Shown piece by piece: positions 24,511 to 41,862 of a stretch of 64,000 nt of DNA. The translations under genes were made by a program, and so were the position numbers. The notes under the pieces were generated by a model. That model was not told where the DNA came from. It was given only the letters and a program-made list of their open reading frames with translations, and did not search any database. Each line of letters opens with the position of its first letter. The first letter of the stretch is position 1. Source of the stretch: Martelella limonii (GTDB lineage: Bacteria > Pseudomonadota > Alphaproteobacteria > Rhizobiales > Rhizobiaceae); assembly GCF_013344475.1 (NCBI RefSeq), contig NZ_JABUOU010000011.1, positions 1 through 64,000 of the forward strand. Reading direction: 5' to 3'.

Positions 24511-26088
24511 TCAGCCCGCGAGCATTTTTGCCAGCATGAAACCGGAACCGGCGCCCGTGCCAGCCCCCGGCCAGGTGGCTGCTCCGCACATGTAAAGTCC
24601 GGGAACCGGCGTCTTATAGCGGGAATAGCCCGCAACCGGGCGGAACAGGAAGTTCTGGTCGAGGTGATGCGAGCCCGACAGGCTGTCACCGCCGATGAGA
24701 TTGGGGTTTTCTCGCTCCAGATCCCGCGGGGAAAAGACCGCGCTTGACCTGATCCTTGCCCGGGTTCCCGGCGCATAGGTCTCGATGAGATCGAGCACGC
24801 GCTCGGCATAGGCATGCTTGACTGTTTCCCAGTCGGTGCCCTCGATCGTGCCTGCCGCATCGCCGATGACGTCCGCCGGCAGTACCCTGACCTGTATCCA
24901 CAGAACATGCTTGCCATCCGGCGCACGCGAAGGATCGACCGCAGACGGCTGGCCGACGACGAGCGCGGGTTCAGCCGGCAGCAGACCGTCCATCGCCTCG
25001 GCATAGAGCTTTGACATCATCTGCATGTCGGGCGCGATATGGATATAGGCATAGTCCTTCAGATGGCTGCCCGCGGACCAGTCCGGCAGATCGTCCATTG
25101 CGAGATGGATCATCATCGTGCCGGGTCCGGCGCGGAAGCGTGAGACCTTTTCGGAAAAATCGGACGCTGCATCGGGCACCAGATCGGTAAACAGCAATTT
25201 CGGATGGACATTGGCGATCACAGCCTTCTTCGCGGCAATCGTCCGGCCGGAGGCAAGCGTCACGCCGGTCGCCTTGCCGGCGCTGTCGCGCACGACACGC
25301 GCCACGCGTTCGCCCAGCACGATATCGCCATCATGCTCCCGCACCACCTTTGTCATGGCGCGGATGATGGTGTCGGCGCCGCCCTTGCCGATGACCATGC
25401 CGAAAGCCTGGTTCGCCATCGATTCCAGATAGGGGAAGAGCGCACCGCCAGCGACGTCGGGAGCAAAATCCAGATGCAGACCCCAGGTCGCCATCATCAC
25501 CTTCAGCTTCTCGCTGTCGAAATGCCGGTCCAGGAACGCGCGCGGGGTGGCGACCAGCAGCCGCGACAGCCGGTAAAGCCCCTCGGTTCCGAGCGCCCGC
25601 CAGGCCTTCCACACCGCCTTAGCGGTTTGAAACGACGGCATCGGCGCGCCGAGAAGCGCGAAAATATGCGGCGCATCGCGCGAGAAATCGGTAAGCATCT
25701 GTTCCCAGCGCGCCGCGTCCTCCGGCGACAGTTCGGCGATGGCGGCCCTTGTCTCGGCAAGGTCGGGCCCGACGCCAAGCGCGGTGCCATCGCGGAAGAC
25801 GCTGGCAAAGCAATGCGGCGCCGGCACCAGTTCGAGCCCTGCTGCGGTCAACGGATCGCGATGAGCGGCGAAAAAGGCGGAGCCCGCGAACATCGACAGG
25901 TTCATGGCGCCGAAATCGTGGCGGAAGCCCGGCTCGGTCAGCTCCTGCGTTTTCACAGCGCCGCCCGGCTCTTCAGCCGCCTCGACCACGCAGACCGACC
26001 AGCCTTTGCTGGCAAGATGCACGGCAGCTGCCAGCCCGTTATGGCCGGCACCGATGATCACCGCATCATATTCCGTCTTTTCCGTCAT
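24511..26088 (-). CDS. FAD-dependent oxidoreductase, phytoene desaturase-like (paralogue 1)
   Basis: A 525-residue flavoprotein of the CrtI/phytoene dehydrogenase-related family. The dinucleotide-binding motif is at the N-terminus (DAVIIGAGHNGLAAAVHLASKG), followed by GGAVKTQELTEPGFRHDFGA, the VIGKGGADTIIRAM segment and the C-terminal FAD motif PVPGLYMCGAATWPGAGTGAGSGF. There are no carotenoid genes nearby, so a carotenoid role is unlikely; the family also contains amine and other small-molecule oxidases. It is a paralogue of the protein at 27231: both share LPAEPxxxVGQPxAxDPxRAPxG and the same C-terminal motif. It is transcribed away from the isatin-hydrolase-like gene from a common intergenic region. 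Start ATG has GGGGAA 7 bases upstream. Confidence 0.88.
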   Translation of the reverse strand: MTEKTEYDAVIIGAGHNGLAAAVHLASKGWSVCVVEAAEEPGGAVKTQELTEPGFRHDFGAMNLSMFAGSAFFAAHRDPLTAAGLELVPAPHCFASVFRDGTALGVGPDLAETRAAIAELSPEDAARWEQMLTDFSRDAPHIFALLGAPMPSFQTAKAVWKAWRALGTEGLYRLSRLLVATPRAFLDRHFDSEKLKVMMATWGLHLDFAPDVAGGALFPYLESMANQAFGMVIGKGGADTIIRAMTKVVREHDGDIVLGERVARVVRDSAGKATGVTLASGRTIAAKKAVIANVHPKLLFTDLVPDAASDFSEKVSRFRAGPGTMMIHLAMDDLPDWSAGSHLKDYAYIHIAPDMQMMSKLYAEAMDGLLPAEPALVVGQPSAVDPSRAPDGKHVLWIQVRVLPADVIGDAAGTIEGTDWETVKHAYAERVLDLIETYAPGTRARIRSSAVFSPRDLERENPNLIGGDSLSGSHHLDQNFLFRPVAGYSRYKTPVPGLYMCGAATWPGAGTGAGSGFMLAKMLAG

Positions 26089-26111
26089 CGCCGTTCCCCG
26101 ATATACCTATA

Positions 26112-26125
26112 TGCATAGAAAATGC
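26112..26125. promoter_or_regulatory. Weak relative of the shared operator motif
   Basis: TGCATAGAAAATGC, overlapping the palindrome TATGCATA (26110-26117), lies about 25 bases before the start of the leftward FAD oxidoreductase. It resembles the 33628 copy apart from one gap and one mismatch. Offered as a possible fourth site. Confidence 0.35.
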
Positions 26126-26271
26126 GTTTTGTTCAAAAGAGCATTTTTTTCGGGGAACCTGCAATCCCTGCAAGCGAAATAGTCTTTCTGTGCTGAAAAT
26201 TTTCGGTTGCGCGCCTTTGGCCAAGATTGGCAACCGGCTGCGATCAACGCAGATGGCGGCGCCATGATCCT

Positions 26272-26287
26272 TGCATTATCATATTTT
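26272..26287. promoter_or_regulatory. Shared operator-like motif, site 1
   Basis: TGCATTATCATATTTT matches the motif upstream of the indolepyruvate oxidoreductase genes (TGCATTAGCATATTTT at 33514) at 15 of 16 bases. It lies about 100 bases upstream of the cyclase start, within the 296-base divergent region 26089-26384, which contains no gene. The locally encoded MarR protein is the most likely binder. Confidence 0.55.
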
Positions 26288-26384
26288 CTTTCATAGGCTC
26301 TCATTCAACGCCCGCAACAAGACCGGTTGAACAAGACCGCCAGATGCGCCGGCACCGGTCCGGGCGACAAAGGGGAAGAATATC

Positions 26385-27170
26385 ATGAGTGATACATCCG
26401 TGCTTGGAAGTCTCGGCGCCGCTCTGCTTTCGGGCAGCGTCAAGGTCGTCGACATCACCGCGCCGCTCGGGCCCGAGACGCCGGTCCTTTATCTGCCGCC
26501 GGAGTTCGGTCAGAACACACCGAACGTAAAGGTGCACAAGATTTCCGAGTATGACGAGAACGGGCCGTTCTGGGCCTGGAACTGGATCGAGCTCGGCGAG
26601 CATACCGGCACCCATTTCGACGCACCGTCGCACTGGATCACCGGCAAGGACAATCCGGACAACACCACGGACACCATCAAGCCGCAGAATTTCGTCGCAC
26701 CGGTCAACGTCATCGACCGGTCAAAGGAAGCCGAAGCCGATCACGATTACCTGCTGACCGTCGACAGCATCAAGGAATGGGAAGCCGAGCACGGCGAGAT
26801 CGAGGCCGGAAGCTGGGTTGTGATGCGCACCGACTGGTACAAGCGCAACGGCTCGAGCGAAACCTTCCTGAATGCCGACGAAAACGGCCCGCATTCCCCC
26901 GGCCCGACGGCGGAGGCGATCGAATACCTGATCTCCAAGGGCATTATCGGCTGGGGCCAGGAAACCATCGGCACCGATGCCGGCTCCGCCGGCGGCATGG
27001 AGCCGCCCTTCCCGGCGCACAACCTGATGCACAAGCACAACAAATATGGTCTTGCGAGCCTCTCCAACCTCGACCAGCTTCCGGCCAAGGGCGCGATCCT
27101 GATCGCGGCGCCGCTGAAGTTCGTCAAGGGCACCGGCTCTCCGGTGCGCGCCCTGGCGCTGATCGCCTGA
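26385..27170 (+). CDS. Cyclase-family metal hydrolase, isatin hydrolase-like
   Basis: A 261-residue member of the cyclase/kynurenine-formamidase superfamily. The metal-binding motif HTGTHFDAPSHW is intact, with further conserved GSWVVMRTDWYKR, HSPGPTAEAIEYL, GTDAGSAGG and PAHNLMHKHNKYGLASLSNLDQLPAKGA blocks. Length and these blocks agree closely, from memory, with characterised isatin hydrolases, which open isatin to isatinate using manganese, rather than with the shorter KynB formamidases (about 210 residues). Substrate assignment is therefore strong at family level and inferred at compound level. It leads a rightward unit with an FAD oxidoreductase and a MarR regulator; AGGGGAAG precedes the ATG. 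Confidence 0.85.
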   Translation: MSDTSVLGSLGAALLSGSVKVVDITAPLGPETPVLYLPPEFGQNTPNVKVHKISEYDENGPFWAWNWIELGEHTGTHFDAPSHWITGKDNPDNTTDTIKPQNFVAPVNVIDRSKEAEADHDYLLTVDSIKEWEAEHGEIEAGSWVVMRTDWYKRNGSSETFLNADENGPHSPGPTAEAIEYLISKGIIGWGQETIGTDAGSAGGMEPPFPAHNLMHKHNKYGLASLSNLDQLPAKGAILIAAPLKFVKGTGSPVRALALIA

Positions 27171-27230
27171 CGATCATTCCGGCGCGGCAGACCACTGCCA
27201 CGCCGTTCCTTTAGGCAGCGAGGGCTCAGC

Positions 27231-28814
27231 GTGGCGAATTACGATCACATCATCATCGGCAGCGGCATCAATGCGCTGGTTGCGGCGTCCCTTCTCGGCA
27301 AGGCCGGAAAGCGCGTGCTGGTGCTGGAACGCAATGACACGACCGGCGGCTGCCTGAAGACGGCCGAGATCACCGCGCCGGGCTACCTGCACGATGTGAT
27401 GGCGACCACCATGGTGCTGTTCCTCACCTCGCCCGCCTTTGCGGCGCTCGGCGGCGACCTTGCAGCGCGCGGCGTCGAATTCTGCCACACCGATACGCCG
27501 ACCGGCGTGTTGAGGCGTGATGGCAGCCATCTGATCTTCTCCACAGACCGCAAGCGCAACATCGCCGCATTTGCCGAAAAGGCCGATGGCGATGGCGCCG
27601 TCTTCGATGCCGAAATGGGCGCGATGGGAGGCGATGCGGACTTCGTGTTCTCCCTGCTCGGCGGCAACCTCTGGTCCGGCGCGACCATGAAGACGATGAT
27701 GAAGCAGGTGTGGAAGCGCGGCCCGCGCGGGCTCGCCGCCTGGTTCGGCGAGGCGCTGACGCCGGCGCGCGGCTATCTGGAAACGACCTACACCTCGGAA
27801 GAGGCAAAAGCGCTCTGGGCGCCCTGGGTGCTGCATTGCGGACTTTCGCCGGAGGCAAGCTATTCGGCCCAGATGCTGAAGGTGATCGGCTTTGCGATCG
27901 AGCTTGCCGGCTGCCCGATCGTCAAGGGCGGCGCGCGCAACCTCACGCTTGGCTTTGAAAAGCTGATCCGCGACCAGGGCGGCGAGATCCGGACCGGTGC
28001 GGATGTCGAGAGCATCACCCTCGACAATGCCGGCAAGGCCACCGGCGTGCGCCTTGCCGATGGCACGTCCCTTGTCGCCAAGTCCGGCGTCATTGCCTCG
28101 GTCACCCCGAACCAGCTCTACAACCGCCTGCTGGCCGGAAAGCCTGCGCCCGATGACGTTGCGAAAGGACTGAAATCCTATCGCTATGGCAAGGGCAACA
28201 TGCAGATTCACTATGCGCTGAAGGCGCCGCCGAAATGGAAGGCAGGCGCGGAGCTTGCCAATGTCGCCCTGATACACCTCACCGATGGTCTCGATGCGGT
28301 CTCGCGCTCTTCCAACGAGGCCGAGCGCGGCATGCTCCCGGCAGAACCCACGGTCTGCGTCGGCCAGCCGACCGCGCTTGATCCGACCCGGGCGCCGGAG
28401 GGCGGCGCAATCCTGTGGCTGCAGCTTCCCGATACGCCGCGCCATATCAAGGGCGATGCTGCGGGCCTCCTCGATTGCCCCGCCGACGGCCGCTGGACCG
28501 AGGCGCTGCGCGAGGCCTTTGCCGACCGCATCCATGCCATGCTTGCCGAGCGGATCGAGAATTTCGACGACATCGTGATTGCGCGCCATGCCGCGTCGCC
28601 GGCCGATCTCGAAGCCATGAACATGAACCTCGTGGGGGGCGATCCCTATGGCGGTTTCTGCGGGCTCGACCAGTTTTTCCTCTGGCGCCCGTTCAAGACT
28701 ACGTCTAACCACAAGACCCACATTCCCGGCCTCTATCACATCGGCGCATCGACCCATCCGGGTCCGGGCCTCGGTGGCGGCTCGGGCTATCTTCTGGCTT
28801 CCTCGCTGACGTAA
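27231..28814 (+). CDS. FAD-dependent oxidoreductase, phytoene desaturase-like (paralogue 2)
   Basis: A 527-residue flavoprotein with the N-terminal dinucleotide fold DHIIIGSGINALVAASLLGKAGK and GGCLKTAEITAPGYLHD, and the C-terminal IPGLYHIGASTHPGPGLGGGSGYL motif. It starts with GTG, with GAGGG 7 bases upstream, 60 bases after the cyclase gene, and is followed after 12 bases by the MarR gene. It shares extended similarity with the divergent paralogue at 24511, so the two may act in sequence or as a heteromeric pair on one substrate. The family oxidises C-C or C-N bonds using FAD; the substrate is unknown. No carotenoid pathway gene is near. Confidence 0.88.
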   Translation: MANYDHIIIGSGINALVAASLLGKAGKRVLVLERNDTTGGCLKTAEITAPGYLHDVMATTMVLFLTSPAFAALGGDLAARGVEFCHTDTPTGVLRRDGSHLIFSTDRKRNIAAFAEKADGDGAVFDAEMGAMGGDADFVFSLLGGNLWSGATMKTMMKQVWKRGPRGLAAWFGEALTPARGYLETTYTSEEAKALWAPWVLHCGLSPEASYSAQMLKVIGFAIELAGCPIVKGGARNLTLGFEKLIRDQGGEIRTGADVESITLDNAGKATGVRLADGTSLVAKSGVIASVTPNQLYNRLLAGKPAPDDVAKGLKSYRYGKGNMQIHYALKAPPKWKAGAELANVALIHLTDGLDAVSRSSNEAERGMLPAEPTVCVGQPTALDPTRAPEGGAILWLQLPDTPRHIKGDAAGLLDCPADGRWTEALREAFADRIHAMLAERIENFDDIVIARHAASPADLEAMNMNLVGGDPYGGFCGLDQFFLWRPFKTTSNHKTHIPGLYHIGASTHPGPGLGGGSGYLLASSLT

Positions 28815-28826
28815 TGGAGTGGATCG

Positions 28827-29333
28827 ATGGGTGAGCGTTTTTCAGGCTCGGTTCTCAATGATGACGGGGCCGCAGGCGAGATCGTCCGCAGCCTTGGCGA
28901 AATCGGCCTGAACGCCTTTGCGCCCTATCTGATGAACCGGGTGATGGCGCGCTACAATGCCAATCTGGCGGAAGAGCTCAAGCATCTCGGCATGAACACC
29001 GCCAAGGTGCGCACGCTTGCCGTGCTCTCGGTCACGCCGTCGGCAACCATCAACGAGCTTGCCGTCTTTGCCGTGATCGAGCAGTCGACCATGAGCCGTA
29101 CGCTCGATTCGCTCGAGGAACAGGGCTATATCCGCCGCCAGTCGCGCAATGAGGACATGCGGGTGCGCGACGTCTCGATCACCGAAGAAGGCCGCACCGC
29201 CTTCGAGGCGGCCTGGCCCACCATGTACGCCTTCCTGCTGCAGATGTTCGAGGGCATCGACGAGGACGAACACCGCGCCTTCGTGACCACACTGCAGAAG
29301 ATGCTGCGCAATGTGCGGGTGAACGAGATCTAG
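28827..29333 (+). CDS. MarR-family transcriptional regulator
   Basis: A 168-residue winged-helix regulator. The core is NTAKVRTLAVLSVTPSATI, then the recognition region LAVFAVIEQSTMSRTLDSLEEQGYIRRQ and the wing RNEDMRVRDVSITEEGRTAF. MarR proteins are usually dimeric repressors released by aromatic ligands. The 50-residue N-terminal extension is longer than usual. Co-transcription with the isatin-hydrolase-like gene and the presence of a repeated motif at three promoters of the region make it the leading candidate regulator of the whole 24.5-39.9 kb block. MarR proteins are known regulators of auxin catabolism loci in plant-associated bacteria, which fits an indole-type effector. Confidence 0.9.
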   Translation: MGERFSGSVLNDDGAAGEIVRSLGEIGLNAFAPYLMNRVMARYNANLAEELKHLGMNTAKVRTLAVLSVTPSATINELAVFAVIEQSTMSRTLDSLEEQGYIRRQSRNEDMRVRDVSITEEGRTAFEAAWPTMYAFLLQMFEGIDEDEHRAFVTTLQKMLRNVRVNEI

Positions 29334-29348
29334 AGCAGTGCAGGGTGG

Positions 29349-29752
29349 CGCTGGGCACCAAGCTTGCTGGCCGTTCGCTCAAGCCCCCGCCTCCAACCGC
29401 TCCTCTATGATCTCGCCCGACCTTCGATCGTGTCATGCTCGGGCTCGACCCGAGCATCCAGGCCACACGGAAAACGCTTCCTGGATCCTCGGGTCAAGCC
29501 CGAGGATGACGCGGACAGTGTGGAGCGGCTGTCCCAAAACTGAGCGGCAGCGCAGTTCCAGACAGGGCACCAGGCTTGGTGGCTGTCCGCATCAGCCCCC
29601 GTCTCCAATCGCTCCTCTATAGTCTCGCCCGGCCTTCGATCGGGTCATGCTCGGGCTCGACCCGAGCATCCAGGCCACACGGAGATCGCTTCCTCGATCC
29701 TCGGGTCAGGCCCGAGGACGACGCGGAAAGTGCGGAGCGGCTCCCCTAACCC
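29349..29752. repeat. Tandem duplication of a palindromic intergenic repeat (copies 3 and 4)
   Basis: Two copies of a unit of about 212 bases lie head to tail between the MarR gene and the convergent oxidoreductase beta gene. Each contains CTCCTCTAT, a TTCGATCG box, the palindrome CTCGGGCTCGACCCGAG (about 29438 and 29650) and, about 45 bases later, CCTCGGGTCAAGCCCGAGG or its variant. The copies differ by scattered point changes, so the duplication is not very recent. The 440-base gap contains no gene. Confidence 0.85.
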
Positions 29753-29773
29753 GACATGTCCGCAGCCCGTCGC

Positions 29774-31315
29774 CTAAAGCGTCGCCACCGTCTTCAGCGC
29801 GCCGTCGAGCGCGATGCCGCTTTCGTCGAGCAGGGCGGCCTGGCGCAGGCGCTTGAGCCAGGCGGCGCCATCCTCGCGGGTTTCCAGCATCGGGATCGCG
29901 GACATGACGCGATCGAATTTCGACAGGCCGCGGGCATGGGTGTCGGAGTAGCCCTTGACGAGACGGCGTGTCGCGATCGTCTCGCAGGCGAGATCGTAAT
30001 TGCGGGGCAGCACGGCGAGCGCCGTCTCGAGCCATGCCTCGCGATGCTCCGCCTCGCGGAAATGCCGCAGGCTGCCGCGACGGGTGCGCCGCATGGCGGC
30101 AAGGAGATAGAGCGAGGAGAACCAGAACAGCGTCGCGGTCTTGACCCGGCGGCCCTTGTTGATACGCCGGTCGAGCCATGCAAACAGCTTCGGGCAGTTT
30201 TCGATATAGAGCCCCAGCCCCTTCGGCAGCGTGCCGCAGACTTCCTCCATGCGCGGATGCATGTATTCGGTCATGTAGAGGATCTGGTCTTCCTTCACGC
30301 CCACCTCGTTTTCGACGCGCTTGAAACGGGTTCCGCGCACCTTGAGATCGGCAACCCGGACGACGTCGTCATAGGCCATGGCGACCGCGACATATTTGGC
30401 GGCCTCGACGGTGAAGGCAAAGCCCTTCTCCGCACCGCCATTTTCCCGGTCGGCGGAAAGAAGCGCTGCCATCCGCGTCAGATATTCGTCGGCATAGGCC
30501 GGATCCTGAAAATCGGTGAGCTTCTTCACGCCGGCAAACAGCATGGCATGGGCGACATCCGGAAATTCGCTGCGGATCCGGTTCACCAGCCTGTCGAGCA
30601 CCGGATGGCCGGCAGAGGCGGGAAGGGTATCCAGCCGCTTGACGGGCGTTGCCGAGACCTTGTCGTTTCCGCCCTGGAGCGCACGGGCATAGGCGGCATC
30701 GAACGCCTTGAGGCTCGCCGCGACGCCGCGCCCGCCGGCCTTGATCGTCTCGTGATAGGCTTCCTTTGGAAACGGCAGGGCCTTCGAGGCCGCGAACGCG
30801 CCGAACATGGCCGACGAAATCACGCTGCCATTCTTCACCGCAAGCGTATCCATGTCGAAGGCGATCGTCTTGCGGGCGGCGAAATCGGTGGCGTCGACCA
30901 CGGTTTCGGGATTGCCGATGCCATCGCCCGGCTTTTCCTTTTCGCCGACGGCGAAGGAGCGGTGGGTGGAGGCGACCAGAAGCGTCTTGTCCGGCGTCAC
31001 GAGCCCCCGCATCACGGAACGGCCGGCCTCCATCAGTTCGGCCGCAATCACCACATCCACATCGCCGGGGGTCGGCATCAGCGACAGGATCGGCGTTTCG
31101 CCATCGCGCGCGCGGATCATCTCGAGATAATAGATCGTGGCGCCGGTGCGCTGGGCAACGCCCGGCACAGAGGTTGTCTGCGCCACCCAGCCCTGGCTTT
31201 CGGCGAGATTGACGATCCAGTCGGCGAGAACCCCGCCGCCCTGTCCACCCATGGCGAGGATCGCGATCGAAAACGGCTTGTCGGCGGAAAGCGCCCGGCT
31301 ATCGGTCATCATCAT
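29774..31315 (-). CDS. iorB: Indolepyruvate ferredoxin oxidoreductase beta subunit with DUF6537-type C-terminal domain
   Basis: A 513-residue partner of the alpha subunit directly upstream. Residues about 10-210 form the pyruvate-ferredoxin-oxidoreductase gamma-type domain (SIAILAMGGQGGGVLADWIV, TSVPGVAQRTGATIYYLEM), which together with the alpha subunit oxidatively decarboxylates arylpyruvates to aryl-acetyl-CoA. The remaining 300 residues are an alpha-helical extension (GTRFKRVENEVGVKEDQILYMTEYMHPR area) that I assign to DUF6537, found on the longer proteobacterial version; archaeal IorB proteins are about 200 residues. Three consecutive ATG codons (31315, 31312, 31309) make the start ambiguous by two residues. 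It begins five bases after the alpha-subunit stop, so the two are co-translated. Confidence 0.9.
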   Translation of the reverse strand: MMMTDSRALSADKPFSIAILAMGGQGGGVLADWIVNLAESQGWVAQTTSVPGVAQRTGATIYYLEMIRARDGETPILSLMPTPGDVDVVIAAELMEAGRSVMRGLVTPDKTLLVASTHRSFAVGEKEKPGDGIGNPETVVDATDFAARKTIAFDMDTLAVKNGSVISSAMFGAFAASKALPFPKEAYHETIKAGGRGVAASLKAFDAAYARALQGGNDKVSATPVKRLDTLPASAGHPVLDRLVNRIRSEFPDVAHAMLFAGVKKLTDFQDPAYADEYLTRMAALLSADRENGGAEKGFAFTVEAAKYVAVAMAYDDVVRVADLKVRGTRFKRVENEVGVKEDQILYMTEYMHPRMEEVCGTLPKGLGLYIENCPKLFAWLDRRINKGRRVKTATLFWFSSLYLLAAMRRTRRGSLRHFREAEHREAWLETALAVLPRNYDLACETIATRRLVKGYSDTHARGLSKFDRVMSAIPMLETREDGAAWLKRLRQAALLDESGIALDGALKTVATL

Positions 31316-31320
31316 GGCCC

Positions 31321-33471: not shown

Positions 33472-33781
33472 CTCGACATCCCCTTTTCCGTAGACCGGAT
33501 TTTTGAATTAACATGCATTAGCATATTTTTGGGAATCTCGAAATGTCAACAAAAATAGCGAATTTTTGGAGGAATCCGCGTCATCTCCGGGTTCGGCCCC
33601 GCCCGAAGTCATGCAATTGCATATTTATGCATCAGAATATGCTCAAATGGCGCTCAAAATTTTAAACCTCAAATATTTGCCTTGCCGGACCGCCCGTTTT
33701 GCTCTTAGACTTGGCACAAACAACAAGCATGACCCCGTGGACAACCATTTCTGCGGGCTCGGGAACAACTGGAGCATCATC
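33472..33781. promoter_or_regulatory. Divergent control region with clustered operator-like motifs
   Basis: This 310-base AT-rich stretch serves both the leftward iorAB genes and the rightward peptide-type ABC operon. It carries TGCATTAGCATATTTT (33514-33529) containing the inverted repeat ATGC-ATTA-GCAT, then a cluster of half sites at 33611-33642: the perfect palindrome ATGCAATTGCAT, the inverted repeat TGCATA-TT-TATGCA, and TGCATCAGAATATGC. The consensus TGCATnAnnATAT is shared with site 26272 upstream of the cyclase. No gene is seen here; a longer frame entering from 33566 lacks a ribosome site and a signal-peptide start. Confidence 0.55.
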
Positions 33782-35317
33782 ATGACGACCTTTACCCGTC
33801 GCCAAACACTTGGCCTTGGCGCAGCCGCTTTCGTTTCAGGTCTCCTCGCTGGCCGCTTGCAGGTCCTCGCCGCGGAAACCGACACGCTTACCATTGCTTT
33901 CAATGTAAACCTTCCCTCCTTCGATCCGACCGTCGGCGCCTCTGCCGTCAACCCGACGATCCAGGCGATCTACCGCTCGATCTTCAGCCAGTATGTCGGC
34001 CAGAAGCCGGATCTCTCCTTTGAGCCCGGCATCCTGACCGACTGGGGCTGGAACGAGGACAAGACCAAGGTCTGGATGGAGGTCCGCGAGGGCGCGACCT
34101 GGCATGACGGATCGCCGGTCACCCCCGAAGACGTGGTCTGGTCGCTCGAGCGCGCCGCCAACCCCGAAACCGGCAACCCGATCCAGTTCGTCTGGTCGAC
34201 GATCGGCAATTTTGCGATCGAGGGCAACAAGGTCACCGCCGACGTGCTCCGCTTCGAGCCGACGCTGTTCATGTGGATGGCGTTCCTCACCGGCTATGTC
34301 ATGCCGAAGGCCTATTACGAAAAGGTCGGCGCGGAAGGCTTCGAAAAGGCCCCGATCGGCTCCGGCCCCTATATGGTCGAGGAATATGAGGGCAACGCCT
34401 TCCTCAAGCTCAAGGCCTATCCCGGCTATTATGGCGACAAGCCCGCCTTCGACACCGTAATCTTCAAATTCGTTCCGGACACGACGAGCCGCGTTGCCGA
34501 AATCGAATCCGGCTCCTCCGACGTCACGCTCGAAATCCCCTACGAGGAATATGACCGCCTGATCGCCAAGCCCGGCCTTTCCGGCGTGGCCGAGCCGGTT
34601 TCCGACATCGGCATGATCTTCCTCAACAATATCGACGTGATGAACGACAAGAATGTCCGTCTTGCCGCCAATTACGCGATCAACAAGCAGGCGATCATAG
34701 ACCGGCTTCTGTCCGGCTATGGCGTGCCGCTCGACACGCTGGAAGCGCCGGAATATTCCGCCTTCGATCCCGACATCAAGGTGCCCTACGATCCCGAACT
34801 CGCGGTCAAGCTTCTGGCAGAGTCCGGTTACTCGGTCGACAATCCGGTGAAGTTCACGATCCAGACCACGCGCGGGCTGAAGCCCAAGGATTACGAGATG
34901 ATCCAGGCGATCGTCGGCATGTGGCGCAAGGTCGGCATCGATGCGAATATCGAGGTCTACGAGATCGCCAAGCATTACGAACTGCGCGCGGCCGACGAAC
35001 TGGCCCCTGCCGCCTTCTACAACTGGGGCAATGCCATCGGCGACCCGACCACCTCCACCGGCTTTGCCATGTTCGGCCCGTCGCCGCACTCGGTCTGGAA
35101 CACCGACGACCTCGACGGCATGATCGGCCCGCTCTGGGGCGAAATGGATGAGGAAAAGCGGATCGAAGGCTGGAAGGCGGTCAGCAAGTACATTGCCGAA
35201 CAGGGTTATGTGATTCCGCTCCTCCAGTATGTCCAGCCGATCGTGTTCAAGGACACGCTGACGGTGACGCCGAACGTTTCCGGCGCGCTCGAGCCGACGC
35301 TGGTTGCGCCGAAGTAA
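33782..35317 (+). CDS. Peptide/opine-type ABC transporter substrate-binding protein
   Basis: A 511-residue periplasmic SBP_bac_5 family protein (DppA/OppA/NikA type). The start at 33782 yields a twin-arginine-like leader (FTRRQTLGLGAAAFVSGLLAG), suggesting export by Tat. The mature fold shows TLTIAFNVNLPSFDPTVGAS, GATWHDGSPVTPEDVVWSLERA, GSGPYMVEEYEG and the DKNVRLAANYAINKQAIIDRLL block, all typical. Ligands in this family include di- and oligopeptides, opines, nickel and plant-derived small molecules. It is followed by two permease, two ATPase and one aldolase genes in the same direction, a complete importer. GGAG lies 9 bases before the ATG. Confidence 0.93.
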   Translation: MTTFTRRQTLGLGAAAFVSGLLAGRLQVLAAETDTLTIAFNVNLPSFDPTVGASAVNPTIQAIYRSIFSQYVGQKPDLSFEPGILTDWGWNEDKTKVWMEVREGATWHDGSPVTPEDVVWSLERAANPETGNPIQFVWSTIGNFAIEGNKVTADVLRFEPTLFMWMAFLTGYVMPKAYYEKVGAEGFEKAPIGSGPYMVEEYEGNAFLKLKAYPGYYGDKPAFDTVIFKFVPDTTSRVAEIESGSSDVTLEIPYEEYDRLIAKPGLSGVAEPVSDIGMIFLNNIDVMNDKNVRLAANYAINKQAIIDRLLSGYGVPLDTLEAPEYSAFDPDIKVPYDPELAVKLLAESGYSVDNPVKFTIQTTRGLKPKDYEMIQAIVGMWRKVGIDANIEVYEIAKHYELRAADELAPAAFYNWGNAIGDPTTSTGFAMFGPSPHSVWNTDDLDGMIGPLWGEMDEEKRIEGWKAVSKYIAEQGYVIPLLQYVQPIVFKDTLTVTPNVSGALEPTLVAPK

Positions 35318-35388
35318 GCTTTTAGGCACAGGCTGCAGGCATGGTGCCGCCTGTCCCTGTGTCTCAAGAGACGCCACCTTCTCATGAG

Positions 35389-35470
35389 TCATGCTCGGGC
35401 TTGACCCGAGCATCCAGGCCACACGGAAAGCGCTGCCTGGACCCTCGGGTCAAGCCCGAGGGTGACGCGG
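35389..35470. repeat. Palindromic intergenic repeat, copy 5
   Basis: CTCGGGCTTGACCCGAG (about 35394-35410) followed about 30 bases later by CCTCGGGTCAAGCCCGAGGG (35442-35462). It lies between the binding-protein gene and the first permease gene of the same operon, so the hairpins may lower expression of the membrane components relative to the binding protein. Confidence 0.85.
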
Positions 35471-35553
35471 AGAGGGGGAGAGAGCTTTAGAACAAGGCTG
35501 GAGCAGAGCACCGCTCTCCTCCTTTAAACTTGAAGAAATGCGGCGGAGTATTC

Positions 35554-36561
35554 ATGTCTGTCACCGGAATTTTCAACCGGGCCGTGATGGCGGCCGTGAC
35601 GCTGTTCGGCGTCGCGGTGATCGTCTTCTGTCTCTTGAGGGTCGTCCCCGGCGATCCGATCGCGATGATGATTTCGCCGGGCGCATCCGCCGACGACATT
35701 CTGGCGCTCAAGGTCAAATACGGGCTCGACTCCAGCATTCCCGTCCAGTTCGGCGTCTGGATCCGCGAAATGCTGACCGGCGACTTCGGCACCTCGATCT
35801 CGCTGAAGCGTCCGGTGCTGTCGCTGTTGATGGAACGCCTGCCGGCAACGCTGGAGCTCGCCTTCGCCGCCCTCGTCTTCGGCGTCATCGGCGGCGGGCT
35901 GATCGCGATCCTCGCGACGCTTGCCCGCCGCACGGCTCTGGAATCGATCATTGACGTCTTGAACGGGCTGTTTCTCGCCGTGCCGGATTTCGTCTGGGCG
36001 CTGCTGTTCGTGCTGGTGCTTGGCGTCGCGTTTCCGGTCTTCCCGACCTCGGGCCGCGTCGACCCTCAGCTTTCGGGCGATTTCAGCACCAATTTCTACC
36101 TGGTCGAAAGCCTTGTGACACTGCGCTTTTCGCTGTTTGCCAATGTGCTTTCCCATATGGTGATGCCGGTTCTGGCGCTGGGCCTTCCGCTTGCGGCCGT
36201 CATCATCCGCACGCTGAAGGAAGCCCTGAGCGAGGCGATGCTGCAGGATTACGTGCTGCTGGCGCGGCTGAAGGGCATGTCGGAAACCCGGCTCGTCGTG
36301 CAGGAGACGCTCCGCAATGCCATCGGCCCGACGCTGACGCTGACCGGTGTGCAGTTCACCTTCATGATCGGCGGCACCGTGATCGTGGAGAGAATATTTT
36401 CCTATCCCGGCATCGGCAACATGGCGATCGACGCGGTCATCAACCGCGACCTGCCGCTGATCCAGGGGATCGTGCTGATGTTCGGCCTGATCTTCGTGCT
36501 GATCAACATCGCGATAGACCTTGCCGGCAACTTCTTCAATCCGAGGCTCAGACATGGCTGA
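35554..36561 (+). CDS. ABC transporter permease, DppB/OppB type
   Basis: A 335-residue inner-membrane permease with six predicted helices. The N-terminal helix is followed by the conserved VVPGDPIAMMISPGAS, where other family members have RLxPGDP. The ATPase-contacting loop is EAMLQDYVLLARLKGMSETRLVVQETLRNA (span about residues 230-260). The C-terminal FSYPGIGNMAIDAVINRDLPLIQG motif is typical of DppB. The ATG at 35554 has GGAG 5 bases upstream; an earlier ATG at 35530 lacks a site. The 3' end overlaps the next permease gene by 8 bases. Confidence 0.93.
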   Translation: MSVTGIFNRAVMAAVTLFGVAVIVFCLLRVVPGDPIAMMISPGASADDILALKVKYGLDSSIPVQFGVWIREMLTGDFGTSISLKRPVLSLLMERLPATLELAFAALVFGVIGGGLIAILATLARRTALESIIDVLNGLFLAVPDFVWALLFVLVLGVAFPVFPTSGRVDPQLSGDFSTNFYLVESLVTLRFSLFANVLSHMVMPVLALGLPLAAVIIRTLKEALSEAMLQDYVLLARLKGMSETRLVVQETLRNAIGPTLTLTGVQFTFMIGGTVIVERIFSYPGIGNMAIDAVINRDLPLIQGIVLMFGLIFVLINIAIDLAGNFFNPRLRHG

Positions 36562-37444
36562 CACCAGCATTGCAGCAGGCGCTGCGCCCAAGAAGCGCCA
36601 TCCGGTGCTGTCGGCCCTTTTGAGCGAGCAGCGCGTGCTCTGGGGCGGCGGCATCATTCTTCTCTTGTTCCTGATCGCGATCTTCGCGCCCCTGATTGCG
36701 CCCCACAATCCGCTGGAACAGGACCTGATGCTGTCGAAGATTCCACCGGTGACGTGGCCAGGCGCCGAACCCGGCTATTATCTCGGCACCGACGATCTCG
36801 GCCGCGATGTGCTGTCGCGCCTGATCTACGGCACCCGCACGGCACTCACCGTTGCGGTGATCGCCGCAGGGCTTGCAGCGATCCTCGGTTCGCTGCTCGG
36901 CCTGCTGGCCGGCTGGTATGGCGGCTGGACCGACCGGGTGATCTCCCGCCTTGTCGATATCTGGATGGCGTTTCCGCCCGTCCTGCTGTCGGTGCTGCTG
37001 GTGGCGGTGCTTGGCGCTGGCCTTCATTCCGTGATCGCGGCGATCGTGATCATCGACTGGACCCGTTTCTGCCGGGTGGTGCGCGCCGAAACCATCGCCC
37101 AGCGCGGCATGGATTACGTGACCGCAGCGCGCACGGTCGGTTTTTCGCGGTTCGCGATCCTGACCAAGGAAATCGTCCCCAACATCCTGCCGGTCTTCGT
37201 TGCACTTTTGAGCCTTGAGATGGGCATTGCCGTGGTGGTCGAGGCGATCCTGTCCTTTGTCGGTCTGTCGGTCTCCTCCGACAGCCCGACCTGGGGCGGC
37301 ATGATCGCGGCCGGCCGCCAGACCATCCATCACACGCCCTGGGTTCTGGTGGCGCCGCTTTGCATGCTGCTCGTCACCGTGCTTTCCTTCAACCAGCTCG
37401 GCAACGGCCTGCGCCGGGCGCTCGATCCGGTGATGCGCCGATGA
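36554..37444 (+). CDS. ABC transporter permease, DppC/OppC type
   Basis: A 296-residue partner permease. The N-terminal cytoplasmic stretch and first helix (GGGIILLLFLIAIFAPLIAPHNP) are followed by the family motif YYLGTDDLGRDVLSRLIYGTRTAL. The EAA loop is RGMDYVTAARTVGFSRFAILTKEIVPN and the end is LSFNQLGNGLRRALDP. The ATG at 36554 lies within the end of the previous gene, with GAGG 7 bases upstream, giving tight coupling. The stop overlaps the first ATPase start by ATGA. It forms the channel together with the DppB-type protein. Confidence 0.93.
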   Translation: MADTSIAAGAAPKKRHPVLSALLSEQRVLWGGGIILLLFLIAIFAPLIAPHNPLEQDLMLSKIPPVTWPGAEPGYYLGTDDLGRDVLSRLIYGTRTALTVAVIAAGLAAILGSLLGLLAGWYGGWTDRVISRLVDIWMAFPPVLLSVLLVAVLGAGLHSVIAAIVIIDWTRFCRVVRAETIAQRGMDYVTAARTVGFSRFAILTKEIVPNILPVFVALLSLEMGIAVVVEAILSFVGLSVSSDSPTWGGMIAAGRQTIHHTPWVLVAPLCMLLVTVLSFNQLGNGLRRALDPVMRR

Positions 37445-38297
37445 CCCTTCTAGCAATCGACGGCCTCAGCGCCGTTTCGCTGCGCGACGGCAACCGCCCG
37501 GTTCTGTCGGATGTAGCGCTCACCCTTGAGCCCGGCGAGGTGCGCGGACTGGTGGGCGAAAGCGGCGCCGGCAAATCGACCATCGCCAAGGCGCTGCTTG
37601 CCATGCTTCCGGCAACCGTCAAGGTGACCGGCGGTCACATCCGCTTCGACGGCCGCGACCTGCTGTCGCTGCCGGGCCGGGCGCTGAAGGAGATCATGGG
37701 CAACGAGATCACCCTGATCCCGCAAGATCCGCAGACGGCGCTGAACCCCGGCCGGCGGATCGAGGCGCAGCTGACCGACGGGCTCCGGCTGAAGCGCGGC
37801 ATGAGCGCGAAGGAGGCGCGCAAGGTGGCGCTTTCCATGCTGGAGGAAGTCTATATCCGCGATCCCGAGCGGGTGATGCGCGCCTACCCGCACGAGCTTT
37901 CCGGCGGCATGCGCCAGCGCGTGCTGATTGCCGCAGCCTTTGCGATGCGGCCGAAACTGGTGGTCGCCGACGAGCCGACCACCGCCCTCGACGTGACCGT
38001 GCAGAAACAGATCCTCCGCCTGATCCGGCAGATGCAGAAGGCCCACGGCACCGCCGTCCTGTTCGTGACCCACGATCTCGGCGTCGTCGCCCAGATCTGC
38101 GACAGCGTGACCCTGCTCTATGCCGGGCGCGTGATCGAGGAGGGCCGGACCGCCGATGTGCTTTCCGATCCCGCCCATGCCTACACCCGCGCGCTGATTG
38201 CCGCCGGTCCCCGCTACGACCGGCCGGATGCGGGGCTTGAACCCGTGCCCGAGGCTATTTTCACGCAGTTGCGCGCAGAAATCGGGGAGGCTTCGCG

Positions 38298-38301
<4 letters not shown>
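37441..38301 (+). CDS. ABC transporter ATP-binding protein, DppD type
   Basis: A 286-residue ATPase. Walker A is GESGAGKST, the Q-loop lies in ITLIPQDPQTALNP, the signature is LSGGMRQRV and Walker B is LVVADEPTTALD, with the switch His in FVTHDLGVVAQI. The C-terminal segment after AYTRALIAAGP is shorter than in classical DppD and lacks the four-Cys cluster seen in some members. The ATG at 37441 overlaps the permease stop by four bases, and the gene's own stop overlaps the next ATPase in the same way, so all four membrane and ATPase genes are translationally linked. Confidence 0.94.
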
Positions 38302-39131
<830 letters not shown>

Positions 39132-39165
39132 GGCCGCGACAACCATTGATGCCGGAGGAGAATTC

Positions 39166-39921
39166 ATGAGCGGCTTTCGCAAGACCTGCATTTCGTTTGA
39201 ACGCGTGATCGGAACCTTTTCGGCGATCCCGCATCCGGTTGCCGTGGAAATCGCGGCGACAAGCGGAGCGGCGTTTCTCTGCATCGACTGCGAACACGCC
39301 CAGATCGGCCGCGAACGGGTGGAAGACATGATCCGCGCCGCAGACCTTCACCGCGTGCCTGCCATGGTGCGGGTGCCGGGCCATCAGCCGGAAGCAATTG
39401 CAAGCGCGCTCGATGCAGGCGCAGCCGGCGTGCTGGTGCCGCGCGTCTCGACCGCCGGCGAAGCCCGCGCCGCTGTTGCCGCCACGCGGTTTCCCCCCGT
39501 TGGCCGCCGCGGCGTCGGACCGGGACGGGCAGCCGGTTATGGCTACCGCATCGCCGAGACCCTGAAATCCGCCAACGAGACCGTGGTGCTCGCGATCCAG
39601 ATCGAGACCGCCGAGGGTCTTGCCAATGTCGAGGAGATCGCAGCCGTCGAAGGCATCGACGTGATCTTCATCGGCCCCGGCGATCTCTCGGTCGCCATTG
39701 ATGCCATGGGGCCGGACAATGCCGAAAAGCTCAATGCCGCGATCCGGCAGATTGCAGACACGGCGCGGGCCGCCGGCAAGGCGGTCGGCATCTTCCGTCC
39801 AGACGGCTCCGATGTCGCGGCATGGGAAACGGCCGGCATCAGCTTCTACATCATCGGCTCGGATGCAATGATGCTCGCATCCGGCCTCGCAGCCGGTCTC
39901 GGCGCGGCGCTGAGGGACTGA
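39166..39921 (+). CDS. HpcH/HpaI-family aldolase
   Basis: A 251-residue class II pyruvate aldolase of the HpaI family, which cleaves or forms 4-hydroxy-2-oxo acids using a divalent metal. The barrel shows FLCIDCEHAQIGRERVEDMIRAAD, GVLVPRVSTAGEARAAV, and the metal ligands Glu in AIQIETAEGL and Asp in IFIGPGDLSVA. The His in DCEHA corresponds to the general base. GGAGGAG lies 5 bases before the ATG. As the last gene of the ABC operon it may process a breakdown product of the imported compound into pyruvate or oxaloacetate plus an aldehyde. The exact substrate is unknown. Confidence 0.9.
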   Translation: MSGFRKTCISFERVIGTFSAIPHPVAVEIAATSGAAFLCIDCEHAQIGRERVEDMIRAADLHRVPAMVRVPGHQPEAIASALDAGAAGVLVPRVSTAGEARAAVAATRFPPVGRRGVGPGRAAGYGYRIAETLKSANETVVLAIQIETAEGLANVEEIAAVEGIDVIFIGPGDLSVAIDAMGPDNAEKLNAAIRQIADTARAAGKAVGIFRPDGSDVAAWETAGISFYIIGSDAMMLASGLAAGLGAALRD

Positions 39922-39927
39922 CCGATC

Positions 39928-40398
39928 TCAAAGACCGGCGTGACGGTGGGCTTCGGAGAGCGAATTCTCCGACTTGATGTCGCGCGTGATCATCGCCGTC
40001 ACCGTGCGGGTGACGCCGGGAAGCTGGCTGATTTCCATGCGCAGCAATCGGTCGAGGGCAGCCATGTCTGCGGCCATGATGTGGAGAAGGTAATCGGCCT
40101 CGCCCGTGGTGGCATGCGCCCGGCGCACCAGCGGATGGGCGCGCACCTCCCGTTCGAACGGCTCGAACATTTCCGGCCTTATCGACACCTGCACCAGCGC
40201 CTCGATGCCGAAGCCCATGCCGGCCGGATCGACCGCGGCGCGGTAGCCCCTGATCAGCCCTTCCGCCTCGAGCGCCTTGACCCTGTTCCAGCAGGGCGTC
40301 TTCGAAAGGCCGACGGTTTCCGCAAGCTCGGCAAATGACATGCGGGCGTCTCGCTCCAGAAGCCCGATGATCCTGCGATCGATTTCACTGATGGTCAT
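39928..40398 (-). CDS. Lrp/AsnC-family transcriptional regulator
   Basis: A 156-residue regulator with the Lrp helix-turn-helix (DRRIIGLLERDARMSFAELAETVGLSKTPCWNRVKALEAEGLI region, residues about 5-47) and a C-terminal amino-acid-binding RAM domain (VRRAHATTGEADYLLHIMAADMAALDRLL). The ATG at 40398 gives the standard length; longer frames lack a ribosome site. It is divergent from the tryptophan-dioxygenase-family gene. Lrp-type KynR proteins are known to control kynurenine-pathway genes from a similar divergent position in other proteobacteria, so it probably senses tryptophan, kynurenine or a related compound. It converges with the aldolase gene, 6 bases away. Confidence 0.9.
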   Translation of the reverse strand: MTISEIDRRIIGLLERDARMSFAELAETVGLSKTPCWNRVKALEAEGLIRGYRAAVDPAGMGFGIEALVQVSIRPEMFEPFEREVRAHPLVRRAHATTGEADYLLHIMAADMAALDRLLRMEISQLPGVTRTVTAMITRDIKSENSLSEAHRHAGL

Positions 40399-40523
40399 TC
40401 GTTCTGCCTTTTCAACCTCATTGCGAACAACGTACCGAATAATCGCCATGCCGGGCAAGCTTTGAAACAATGTTTGCGGGAAAGCCGGTAACATTGATCA
40501 AAAGCAACATTGCGGGAACCCAT

Positions 40524-41270
40524 ATGGACAAGCAGCCCTATCACGATCGCATCGAAAATCCGGTCATGCTCGATTACGGCGTCTATCTCAATGTCGAGAA
40601 GCTGCTCGACTGTCAGAAGCCGCTCGCCGAAATGGCCAATGCCGACGAGCTGCAGTTCCAGATCGTCCATCAAGTCGAAGAGCTCTGGATGAAGCTGATC
40701 GCCTACACGCTGGTCGATGTGATGGATTACATCGAGAAACAGGACACCAACCGGGTTGTGACGCTGATGGGCCGGGTCCACCGGCTGATGCGACTGATGA
40801 CGGCGCAGCTCGACGTGCTGGAGACCATGTCGCCCAAGGAGTATCAGCAGATCCGGCTGCAGCTCGGCAATGGCTCGGGCCAGGAATCGCCGGGCTTCAA
40901 GCTGCTTCTGAGACTGCCGCCCGATCTCTGGCAGATGTTCAAGGCCCATTACCTGACCGCAAAGGGTCTCACCGTGGCCGATGTCTATGACGGCAAATAC
41001 GACCACGGCGACAGCTATGTCGTGGCCGAGGCGCTGGTGGAATTCGACGAGCTGTTCCAGAAATTCCGCGCCAACCACGTCTACCTCATCCACCGCTCGA
41101 TCGGGCTCGGCTCGAAATCGCTGAAGGGCCGTCCGGTGGATCTGCTGCAGGCCGGCGCCCGCTACCGCTTCTTCCCCGAACTCTGGGACATCCGCTGCGA
41201 CATGACCGACGCCTGGGGCGCAAGCTACGGCGTTGTGCGCGAGGCAATCAGCGGGAAGGACAAGGGGTAA
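40524..41270 (+). CDS. Tryptophan 2,3-dioxygenase-family heme protein, divergent
   Basis: A 248-residue all-helical protein of the tryptophan 2,3-dioxygenase superfamily. It has the family substrate-pocket stretch FQIVHQVEELWMKL, the RLxxLMTAQLDVLETMSPKEYQQIR helix, and a His (NHVYLIHRSIG) in the position of the proximal heme ligand. The C-terminal FFPELWDIRCDM also fits. The glycine-rich GTGGSSG loop that closes over tryptophan in true KynA is replaced by SKSLKGRPVDLL, and SGFQS is replaced by SGQESPGFK. It may therefore act on another indole, or differ in chemistry, as some superfamily members do. The start at 40524 follows GGGAA; an in-frame ATG at 40470 is less likely. No other kynurenine gene is adjacent. 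Confidence 0.75.
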   Translation: MDKQPYHDRIENPVMLDYGVYLNVEKLLDCQKPLAEMANADELQFQIVHQVEELWMKLIAYTLVDVMDYIEKQDTNRVVTLMGRVHRLMRLMTAQLDVLETMSPKEYQQIRLQLGNGSGQESPGFKLLLRLPPDLWQMFKAHYLTAKGLTVADVYDGKYDHGDSYVVAEALVEFDELFQKFRANHVYLIHRSIGLGSKSLKGRPVDLLQAGARYRFFPELWDIRCDMTDAWGASYGVVREAISGKDKG

Positions 41271-41339
41271 AAGGTCTCTCCTCACCCGATCTCTCCCCTC
41301 AAAGGGCAGGGCTATCGCATAAGGCGTGGCAGCTTGCTC

Positions 41340-41480: not shown

Positions 41481-41580
41481 AGAAGATTGGGGGGCTATGC
41501 GGAAAAGTCATATGCGACACCCCTAGAGCGTTTCCGCATTTCATGGAAACGCAAAGGTTGCTCACAAACCTATCCCCGGA

Positions 41581-41732: not shown

Positions 41733-41862
41733 GAGGAGAGTGAGGCGGGTCTGTCAACAATCTGACGTTTCCGTCAAATACAGAACCGCTCTAGCCTCAA
41801 GGGGAATTTTGAAGCTGTAACGCTTCTCGAACTGGAAAGCGCGAGGTCTACGGACCGGCAGA

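Follow-up and report, generated by a model that had tools for sequence, protein, structure and literature searches.

Isatin-centred catabolic regulon of Martelella limonii and a proposed role for its IorAB between isatinate and 2-aminobenzoyl-CoA

Isatin and isatinic acid have been reported as intermediates in the bacterial breakdown of auxin and indole, and the passages of the papers cited here name no enzyme that acts after isatinate. A locus in Martelella limonii gives a candidate for this step. It lies in a stretch of 64,000 nucleotides ('the window'), i.e. the first 64 kb of the 148-kb contig C3, and combines an isatin-hydrolase-like cyclase with two flavin adenine dinucleotide (FAD) oxidoreductases (FAD1 and FAD2), a MarR regulator, the two-subunit protein IorAB and a Dpp-type ATP-binding cassette (ABC) importer. 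That this isatin-centred catabolic regulon is real and conserved is strongly supported; the new claim is the role of IorAB, which may turn isatinate into 2-aminobenzoyl-coenzyme A (CoA).

The closest described systems are the iad loci of Variovorax, Bradyrhizobium and Achromobacter, which share with the window iorA/iorB (iadA/iadB), a cyclase-family hydrolase, a MarR repressor and ABC binding proteins. In the portions of the iad literature drawn on here, iorA/iorB are exclusive markers of iad loci with isatin and isatinic acid as intermediates (PMC9613470), and IadI is annotated as a kynurenine formamidase in a route that also includes dioxindole (PMC9613470, PMC12633357, PMC10374108). The same portions give the Rieske oxygenase IadDE as necessary and sufficient for the loss of indole-3-acetic acid (IAA), and the IAA-binding IadK2 as a substrate-binding protein (SBP) of subclass B-III. 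The window differs from these loci, by gene families and published descriptions, in that no IadCDE-like Rieske subunit was found, the cyclase is of the LaIHB type, FAD1 and FAD2 would replace the oxygenase, ligase and thiolase steps, the importer is of the Dpp type and genes of the 2-aminobenzoyl-CoA type are linked to it. A preliminary description of this DNA had set it apart from the known auxin routes. This stands insofar as no IadD-like Rieske subunit was found in the genome, the best match to the Rieske alpha subunit of a Roseibium cluster being 29% identical over only residues 17–217 of 436, and no IadDE-type oxygenase accompanies the iorA/iadA and iorB/iadB homologues assigned by family; the connection to iad loci through these two published markers, however, had not been drawn.

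Two further systems are related. As in the iif indole-degradation clusters, in the part of their description used here (PMC12538310), the M. limonii genome has a styrene/indole-monooxygenase-like (StyA-like) gene beside short-chain dehydrogenase/reductase (SDR)- and flavin-reductase-like genes (G000:C35:159491-160717), and in relatives such genes lie near the isatin module; unlike in iif clusters, FAD2 and the cyclase share the same gene run in Azospirillum. In Azoarcus evansii, according to the section of a review used here (PMC4539516), 2-aminobenzoyl-CoA is processed by a monooxygenase/reductase and then by beta-oxidation. A two-domain flavoenzyme and ligase-like and beta-oxidation-like genes are common to that pathway and ours, whereas here IorAB is predicted to feed it from isatinate, besides or instead of a ligase.

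All genes that had been named between 24,511 and 41,270 are present as open reading frames (ORFs) with positive codon scores, lowest for an HpaI-type aldolase and an Lrp regulator, and with clear family matches. Likely starts were chosen by re-examination, several mechanical ORF starts being too long. The layout is one of several transcription units on both strands and not a single operon, with the following genes and sites of the isatin module:

24511–26088, minus strand: FAD1, CrtO/phytoene-desaturase-like FAD oxidoreductase (family matches below curated cut-offs)
26108–26118, no strand given: candidate regulator site before FAD1, TATATGCATAG (in relatives ATATGCATACAT), conserved in many relatives' FAD1/cyclase intergenic regions; full motif unmatched
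26272–26286, plus strand: operator-like motif TGCATTATCATATTT upstream of the cyclase (intergenic alignment and motif counts)
26385–27170, plus strand: isatin hydrolase of the cyclase family, LaIHB type by sequence (PDB 4j0n, 6e-128; HTGTHFDAPSH and GLAS motifs)
27231–28814, plus strand: FAD2, paralogue of FAD1 and predicted supplier of isatin to the hydrolase (CrtO/phytoene-desaturase-like, below curated cut-offs)
28827–29333, plus strand: MarR-family regulator (family match; closest solved structures 3cjn, then 7kym)
about 29774–31315, minus strand: iorB, POR gamma domain plus DUF6537 (NCBIfam NF006179 above cut-off)
31321–33471, minus strand: iorA, thiamine pyrophosphate (TPP) enzyme with a Cys-rich C-terminal ferredoxin-like region (family matches)
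33514–33528, plus strand: operator-like motif between iorA and the binding-protein gene, iorA side (alignment and motif counts)
33612–33626, plus strand: operator-like motif in the same region, importer side (alignment and motif counts)
about 33782–35317, plus strand: periplasmic binding protein, SBP_bac_5, with a Tat-like leader (family match)
35554–36561, plus strand: DppB-type permease (family match, start re-chosen)
36554–37444, plus strand: DppC-type permease (family match, start re-chosen)
37441–38301, plus strand: DppD-type ATPase (family match, start re-chosen)
38298–39131, plus strand: DppF-type ATPase (family match)

The Dpp/Opp-type importer, with one binding protein, two permeases and two ATPases on the plus strand (about 33782–39131), is thus complete, and the N-terminus of its binding protein, MTTFTRRQTLGLGAAAF, resembles a twin-arginine leader.

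By sequence and motif comparison, the cyclase is an isatin hydrolase of the LaIHB type. Its best match among solved structures is isatin hydrolase B (LaIHB) of Labrenzia aggregata (PDB 4j0n; E 6e-128, 429 bits, ungapped over residues 1–260), the same enzyme type by alignment and signature motifs, followed by other isatin hydrolases (1.3e-90 to 6.2e-89). The part of PMC6117287 used here gives two hallmarks, HxG[T/A]HxDxPxH as metal motif and GLAS or GLQC as signature, and both are found in the cyclase (HTGTHFDAPSH and GLAS), so that the isatin-hydrolase-like assignment made beforehand is borne out. Identity as a kynurenine formamidase was rejected: solved kynurenine formamidases match only at 5e-05 or weaker (at most 26.3 bits), and the KynB model TIGR03035 scores 40 bits, far below its cut-off of 223. 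The closest named relative, from Martelella mediterranea, is 97% identical.

Gene neighbourhoods were compared around cyclase relatives from named genomes, of which 219 were confirmed and the best 80 kept ('named loci'; 35 carry Mesorhizobium in their titles). Flanks of up to 10 kb were included, several stretches being shortened and the importer being cut on one side in many loci. Counted at 45% identity or more, MarR and iorA each occur in 65 of the 80, FAD2 in 62, iorB in 61, FAD1 in 58, the importer's binding protein in 46 and a two-domain flavoenzyme discussed below (ABM) in 45. As had been anticipated for its neighbourhood, the cyclase is co-conserved with MarR, IorAB, both FAD enzymes and the Dpp importer in Rhizobium, Kaistia and Rhodobacterales and, in a rearranged form, in Mesorhizobium. 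There and in Nitratireductor, the importer and FAD1 lie on one strand and cyclase-FAD2-MarR-iorA-iorB on the opposite one. Plasmids of Tritonibacter and Alloyangia keep the whole set, in Alloyangia including ABM, and Sulfitobacter indolifex has cyclase-MarR-iorA-iorB at the corresponding place. More distantly, the betaproteobacterium Caballeronia has iorAB, ABM, MarR and cyclase, with iorA-iorB-thioesterase-ABM consecutive and no FAD or Dpp genes in the stretch, and in the actinomycete Tsukamurella iorAB, cyclase and ABM are joined by two FAD proteins and a ligase-like gene, with neither MarR nor a Dpp importer. There are also loci with cyclase, MarR and IorAB that lack FAD1 and FAD2 (e.g. L012 and L016) and some Brucella/Ochrobactrum loci with no IorA within 10 kb of the cyclase.

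What ties these transcription units together is a short block, TGCANNNNCATATTT, that emerged from aligned intergenic regions of the relatives. The window contains three copies, compared with 0.02 expected from shuffles, one upstream of the cyclase (26272) and two between iorA and the binding-protein gene (33514 and 33612). The whole 4.54-Mb genome has four copies, three of them at the locus, and none of the reversed control; the fourth overlaps the start of a 334-aa ORF without family identity and was treated as chance. In the named loci (1.56 Mb), 57 copies were counted in 36 loci. Every one of the 57 is at most 350 bp upstream of iorA, of the gene for cyclase, FAD1, ABM or the binding protein, or of a second MarR gene, where a site between divergent genes was counted for both and gene starts were extrapolated from alignments. 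The shorter form TGCANNNNCATAT occurs there 129 times, 125 times upstream of these genes and four times elsewhere, with a copy in front of the cyclase in 76 of the 80; control patterns gave 0 (reversed), 3 and 3 (altered spacings) and 21 and 7 (two permuted patterns). Window FAD1 has a partial site only, and a perfect 9-bp inverted repeat, GTTCCCCGA / TCGGGGAAC, with 48 bp between its halves, lies just upstream of it in the FAD1/cyclase gap (26093–26158). In L102, L106 and L111, iorA and ABM diverge over one or two motif copies.

The genes thus almost certainly form a regulon, which the short motif marks in other genomes as well. It is probably controlled by the MarR protein via TGCANNNNCATATTT, where we infer that the regulator binds. 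The closest solved structures to the MarR protein are 3cjn and then 7kym, the latter from a study of an auxin-locus MarR, a likeness that is compatible with an indole-type ligand and goes no further. The preliminary description had proposed a single uptake and breakdown pathway, perhaps via isatin-like intermediates; joint rearrangement of the co-conserved importer and FAD genes and the shared motif agree with this, and MarR control is plausible.

With a probability of roughly two in three, the locus is a MarR-type regulon that imports an indole- or oxindole-type compound and breaks it down via isatin to 2-aminobenzoyl-CoA. The Dpp-type importer would take up such a compound or a conjugate, FAD1 would perform a first oxidation and FAD2 would yield isatin, probably from dioxindole. 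The cyclase would then hydrolyse isatin to isatinate (2-aminophenylglyoxylate), which IorAB would oxidatively decarboxylate with CoA and ferredoxin to 2-aminobenzoyl-CoA and CO2, and ABM, at 79.6 kb of the contig, would dearomatize this product for beta-oxidation. The StyA-like cluster elsewhere in the genome may feed the pathway from indole, and the regulator would act at the TGCANNNNCATATTT sites before the cyclase operon, iorAB and the importer operon. All substrates except isatin we infer, above all those of the import, FAD1, FAD2 and IorAB steps, and our confidence in the identity of the imported substrate is low.

Why should IorAB act on isatinate? Oxidative decarboxylation with CoA is established chemistry in the 2-oxoacid:ferredoxin oxidoreductase superfamily, and phenylglyoxylate oxidoreductases convert an aryl-glyoxylate and CoA into an aroyl-CoA, the very chemistry proposed here, although they are multi-subunit enzymes, unlike the two-subunit IOR-type protein of the window. 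Since isatinate is a 2-oxoacid of the aryl-glyoxylate type, such a reaction would give exactly 2-aminobenzoyl-CoA, and a ligase would become dispensable. We therefore consider it reasonably probable, judging from gene context, that IorAB acts on isatinate. We lean, if only slightly, to the wider claim that in this clade IorA/IorB act as isatinate:ferredoxin oxidoreductases (2-aminobenzoyl-CoA forming) which link isatin hydrolysis to 2-aminobenzoyl-CoA across Alphaproteobacteria, Betaproteobacteria and Actinomycetota, replace an ATP-dependent ligase in some lineages and represent the function of IadAB in iad loci. If true, this would correct a misleading annotation as indolepyruvate oxidoreductase in rhizobia and marine bacteria and provide a prediction for IadAB, auxin-locus markers to which the consulted portions of the cited papers give no function. 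The texts retrieved in our literature search, represented by such portions, contain no assignment of isatinate to IorAB and describe no such activity.

Co-occurrence was counted in the same 151 family genomes throughout (thresholds: cyclase 1e-60, IorA 1e-120, ABM 1e-100, StyA 1e-60, ligase 1e-120, FAD2 1e-120), where one IorA match (G066) and some ligase, FAD2 and ABM matches are partial and two StyA matches (G007 and G112) are only 36–38% identical. The cyclase is found in 46 genomes and IorA in 50, which include all 46 with cyclase and 4 of the 105 others (Fisher p 1.6e-34); the cyclase thus never occurs without IorA, and the two lie within 20 kb of each other in 40 of the 46. ABM is present in 89 genomes, i.e. 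all 46 with cyclase and 43 others (Fisher p 3.4e-14), and within 20 kb of cyclase or IorA in 24 of the 46. An anthranilate-dioxygenase-type protein was found in seven of the 151, two of them among the 46, none above the curated cut-off. The one genome of the same genus in this set, G081, has no match at these thresholds for cyclase, IorA, ABM, StyA, ligase, FAD2 or the tryptophan-dioxygenase (TDO)-family protein described below, so the locus is probably accessory.

These counts bear on the function that the family names of IorA and IorB suggest, i.e. that of a genuine arylpyruvate:ferredoxin oxidoreductase in a locus degrading indolepyruvate, phenylpyruvate or aromatic amino acids, with the cyclase acting on a by-product. 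The domain content of both subunits, including the Cys-rich C-terminal region, is that of an indolepyruvate:ferredoxin oxidoreductase, and iorB is the only DUF6537 match in the genome, so that no other IorB of this type would be available for such a task; such a function would also fit the aminotransferase found in the vicinity of 10 of the 80 named loci and the amino-acid-type importer pair in that of about 20. IorA of this type, however, follows the cyclase across genomes, its annotated neighbours are isatin hydrolase and often ABM, and it scores only 276.6 bits against the cut-off of 650.9 of TIGR03336, the curated model of the arylpyruvate enzyme's alpha subunit (TIGR03334: 35.2 against 205.8). 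An arylpyruvate enzyme is therefore unlikely, and the arylpyruvate handling envisaged in the preliminary description is not supported, as the partners point to isatinate and 2-aminobenzoyl-CoA. An IorA tree (26 rows, midpoint-rooted, two long branches) was not used for any claim. On a Variovorax boronicumulans plasmid (L121:10998-21574), IorAB of the same type is accompanied by an enolase-superfamily protein, an alpha-hydroxyacid oxidase and an ABC importer of the branched-chain type, which may form a route from mandelate-like compounds to aryl-glyoxylates via the same enzyme; NCBIfam names the oxidase and the enolase-superfamily protein only as lactate-dehydrogenase-like and talarate-dehydratase-like, below cut-offs, and the cluster was therefore not counted as evidence.

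The enzyme downstream of IorAB would be ABM. The protein of this genome (C3 79639–81915, outside the window) is 80% identical to that of Alloyangia and combines a VioD-like FAD monooxygenase (residues 1–358) with a xenobiotic-reductase-like, i.e. old-yellow-enzyme (OYE)-like, domain (residues 395–740). This fusion of a monooxygenase with an OYE-type reductase is what we take to define 2-aminobenzoyl-CoA monooxygenase/reductase, and by this two-domain architecture ABM is like that enzyme. In Alloyangia, Caballeronia and Tsukamurella, it stands beside the set under the annotation bifunctional salicylyl-CoA 5-hydroxylase/oxidoreductase. In L102 and L106, enoyl-CoA-hydratase-, acyl-CoA-dehydrogenase- and hydroxyacyl-CoA-dehydrogenase-like genes come after ABM, as a beta-oxidation route needs. 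In four genomes (G020:C23:13578-16732, G002:C21, G027:C33, G037:C7), a second cyclase paralogue (50–52% identical) is no more than about 4 kb away from ABM, which ties ABM to both cyclase types.

Whether 2-aminobenzoyl-CoA comes from IorAB or from a ligase is the question on which a second explanation turns: isatinate could become anthranilate by another or a chemical route, an AMP ligase would then make the thioester and IorAB would have an unrelated role under the same regulator. Anthranilate is the product reported for Bradyrhizobium, Variovorax and Pseudomonas LY1 in the parts of these papers used here (PMC9613470, PMC12633357, PMC8383072), and the ligase occurs in 37 of the 46 cyclase genomes. 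Yet it occurs in all 43 cyclase-free ABM genomes (Fisher p 0.0026), and its nine absences at 1e-120 (G002, G009, G014, G023, G031, G084, G113, G117, G130) fall under six genus labels. Ligase also lies within 8 kb of ABM in only 6 of the 24 genomes where ABM is near cyclase or IorA, compared with 28 of the 43 without cyclase (p 0.0022). Where iorA and ABM are divergent neighbours (G016, G106, G047), no ligase was found within 8 kb of ABM, though all three genomes have one elsewhere, and none is annotated in the Caballeronia stretch L115. Feeding of the pathway by a ligase alone is thus improbable, and decarboxylation of isatinate by IorAB remains our preferred reading.

Published metabolite data can be read alongside. 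In the passages of a 2025 preprint used here (PMC12633357), anthranilate formation requires no more than a nine-gene iad region that lacks iadAB. Strong build-up of C8H7NO3 and C7H7NO is described there only for Variovorax strains that overexpress this region, iadC-K2, in a locus-deletion background. Isatinic acid has the formula C8H7NO3, as given in the part of PMC8383072 used here, and such build-up is what we would expect if IadAB normally consumed isatinic acid; the authors' text, as far as used here, neither says so nor settles which compound it is. According to the same part of PMC8383072, Pseudomonas LY1 fails to grow on IAA when genes called iadA and iadB are mutated; the genes are ordered and named differently in that paper and may or may not correspond to iorAB, hence this was not used as evidence.

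Several points weigh against the proposed pathway besides the frequency of the ligase. The iad work, as far as used here, gives anthranilate as an end product for which iadAB are not needed (PMC12633357). ABM also occurs in the 43 genomes without cyclase, it scores above the cut-off of NF006101, whose curated name is salicylyl-CoA 5-hydroxylase/oxidoreductase, and in this genome it has a benzoate-CoA-ligase-like gene of the AMP type beside it (C3:82839-84458, scanned as a partial protein and scoring below its curated cut-off), so ABM there can be fed by anthranilate. The threshold of 1e-120 could miss other ligases. No solved structure matched IorA at E 0.001, and no exact motif copy was found in the stretches fetched around ABM and StyA of this genome. 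Among the 46 cyclase genomes, FAD2 is missing from 12 and StyA from 31, which implies that upstream steps vary; similarly, the second importer pair and the aminotransferase near some cyclases suggest that what is imported, and even the importer itself, may not be the same everywhere. Finally, the genomes are related, so the p-values overstate independence.

A third explanation, that the locus is an IAA-degrading iad locus after loss of its Rieske oxygenase genes, would account for what it has in common with iad loci (iorA/iorB, cyclase-family hydrolase, MarR and ABC importer) and for the likeness of its MarR to 7kym. However, the clusters of Roseibium and Ruegeria with Rieske, ligase, thiolase and SDR genes have another cyclase paralogue, as does a Shinella cluster of ligase, thiolase and SDR genes whose displayed stretch includes no Rieske gene. 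These paralogues are 50.8–55.0% identical to the cyclase of the window, which belongs to the IHB type and occurs together with FAD1/FAD2. The window's binding protein, moreover, is of the SBP_bac_5 type, which we take to be a class other than the subclass B-III given for IadK2 in the portions used above. We regard such a decayed iad locus as very improbable, and return to the isatin regulon.

Its upstream steps can be outlined from gene order. FAD1 and FAD2 are paralogues, as had been noted, with 37% identity. FAD2 adjoins the cyclase on the same strand in 61 of the 80 named loci, and FAD1 adjoins the binding-protein gene on the same strand in 35, all among L043–L081; with FAD1 beside the importer and FAD2 beside the hydrolase in other genomes, FAD1 would act early and FAD2 just before the hydrolase. 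FAD2 was found in 34 of the 151 genomes, all among the 46 with cyclase (Fisher p 5.3e-24). Its predicted structure (mean pLDDT 67.8) resembles those of carotenoid desaturases and of flavin amine oxidases, nicotine oxidases among them, a resemblance that concerns the fold and indicates no substrate. StyA was found in 15 genomes, again all among the 46 (Fisher p 2.8e-9) and all 15 also with FAD2, and the StyA-like gene on C35 is a candidate entry point from indole.

With regard to import, an amino-acid-type binding protein and permease at window positions 52082–53673 are 68% and 71% identical to a pair in L006, whose relatives are those found near the cyclase in about 20 named loci; they may represent another means of import into this pathway. 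In Tritonibacter (L082:375-6342) and Sulfitobacter indolifex (L118:1478-7473), the isatin module adjoins yet another set of importer genes, together with a gamma-glutamyltransferase and a DUF1028 protein, which perhaps hints at peptide- or glutamyl-linked substrates.

The remaining genes of the described run lie downstream of the importer:

about 39166–39921, plus strand: HpaI/HpcH-type aldolase, module membership doubtful (family match)
about 39928–40449, minus strand: Lrp regulator (family match)
about 40524–41270, plus strand: TDO-family protein (Pfam Trp_dioxygenase above cut-off)

All three had been counted into the pathway by the preliminary description, which is not supported. HpaI is probably not a member, since it occurs in only 5 of the 80 named loci and at other places. 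Lrp and TDO occur in none of them, the window-like distance of TDO being out of reach of the 10-kb flanks, and were not accepted as members: they travel as a pair, in all seven TDO loci examined, and their shared intergenic region has no TGCANNNNCATATTT copy but its own 21-nt imperfect inverted repeat. TDO was found in 4 of the 151 genomes, all four with cyclase (p 0.0078, suggestive), and on the cyclase contig in two of these, at 14 kb in this genome, the only one within 20 kb, and at 22 kb in G102. The protein scores 128.6 bits against the equivalog cut-off of 390.7 of TIGR03036. It keeps histidines aligned with the haem ligand and the distal site as well as the Arg of EYQQIR.

TDO and Lrp, divergently arranged, begin an adjoining second set (39928–49336) with a branched-chain-type ABC transporter, a GntR/FCD regulator, a DUF3830 protein, an aldo-keto reductase and a Peripla_BP_6 binding protein. 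In L104 (G102) and, in part, in L124 (G009), relatives of several of its genes at 41.9–49.3 kb (ABC transporter and others) are neighbours of TDO/Lrp. A clean split between the two sets should be drawn with caution, as homologues of the importer pair at 52082–53673 are found close to TDO in Alloyangia and, in G102, in the interval that separates TDO from iorB. Related ORFs occur near TDO/Lrp in three of the seven loci (L085:16106-17248, L087:10669-11877, L104:14660-15790), that of L085 being annotated as a class-V pyridoxal-phosphate (PLP) enzyme; together with TDO, such an enzyme could serve a kynurenine-like pathway.

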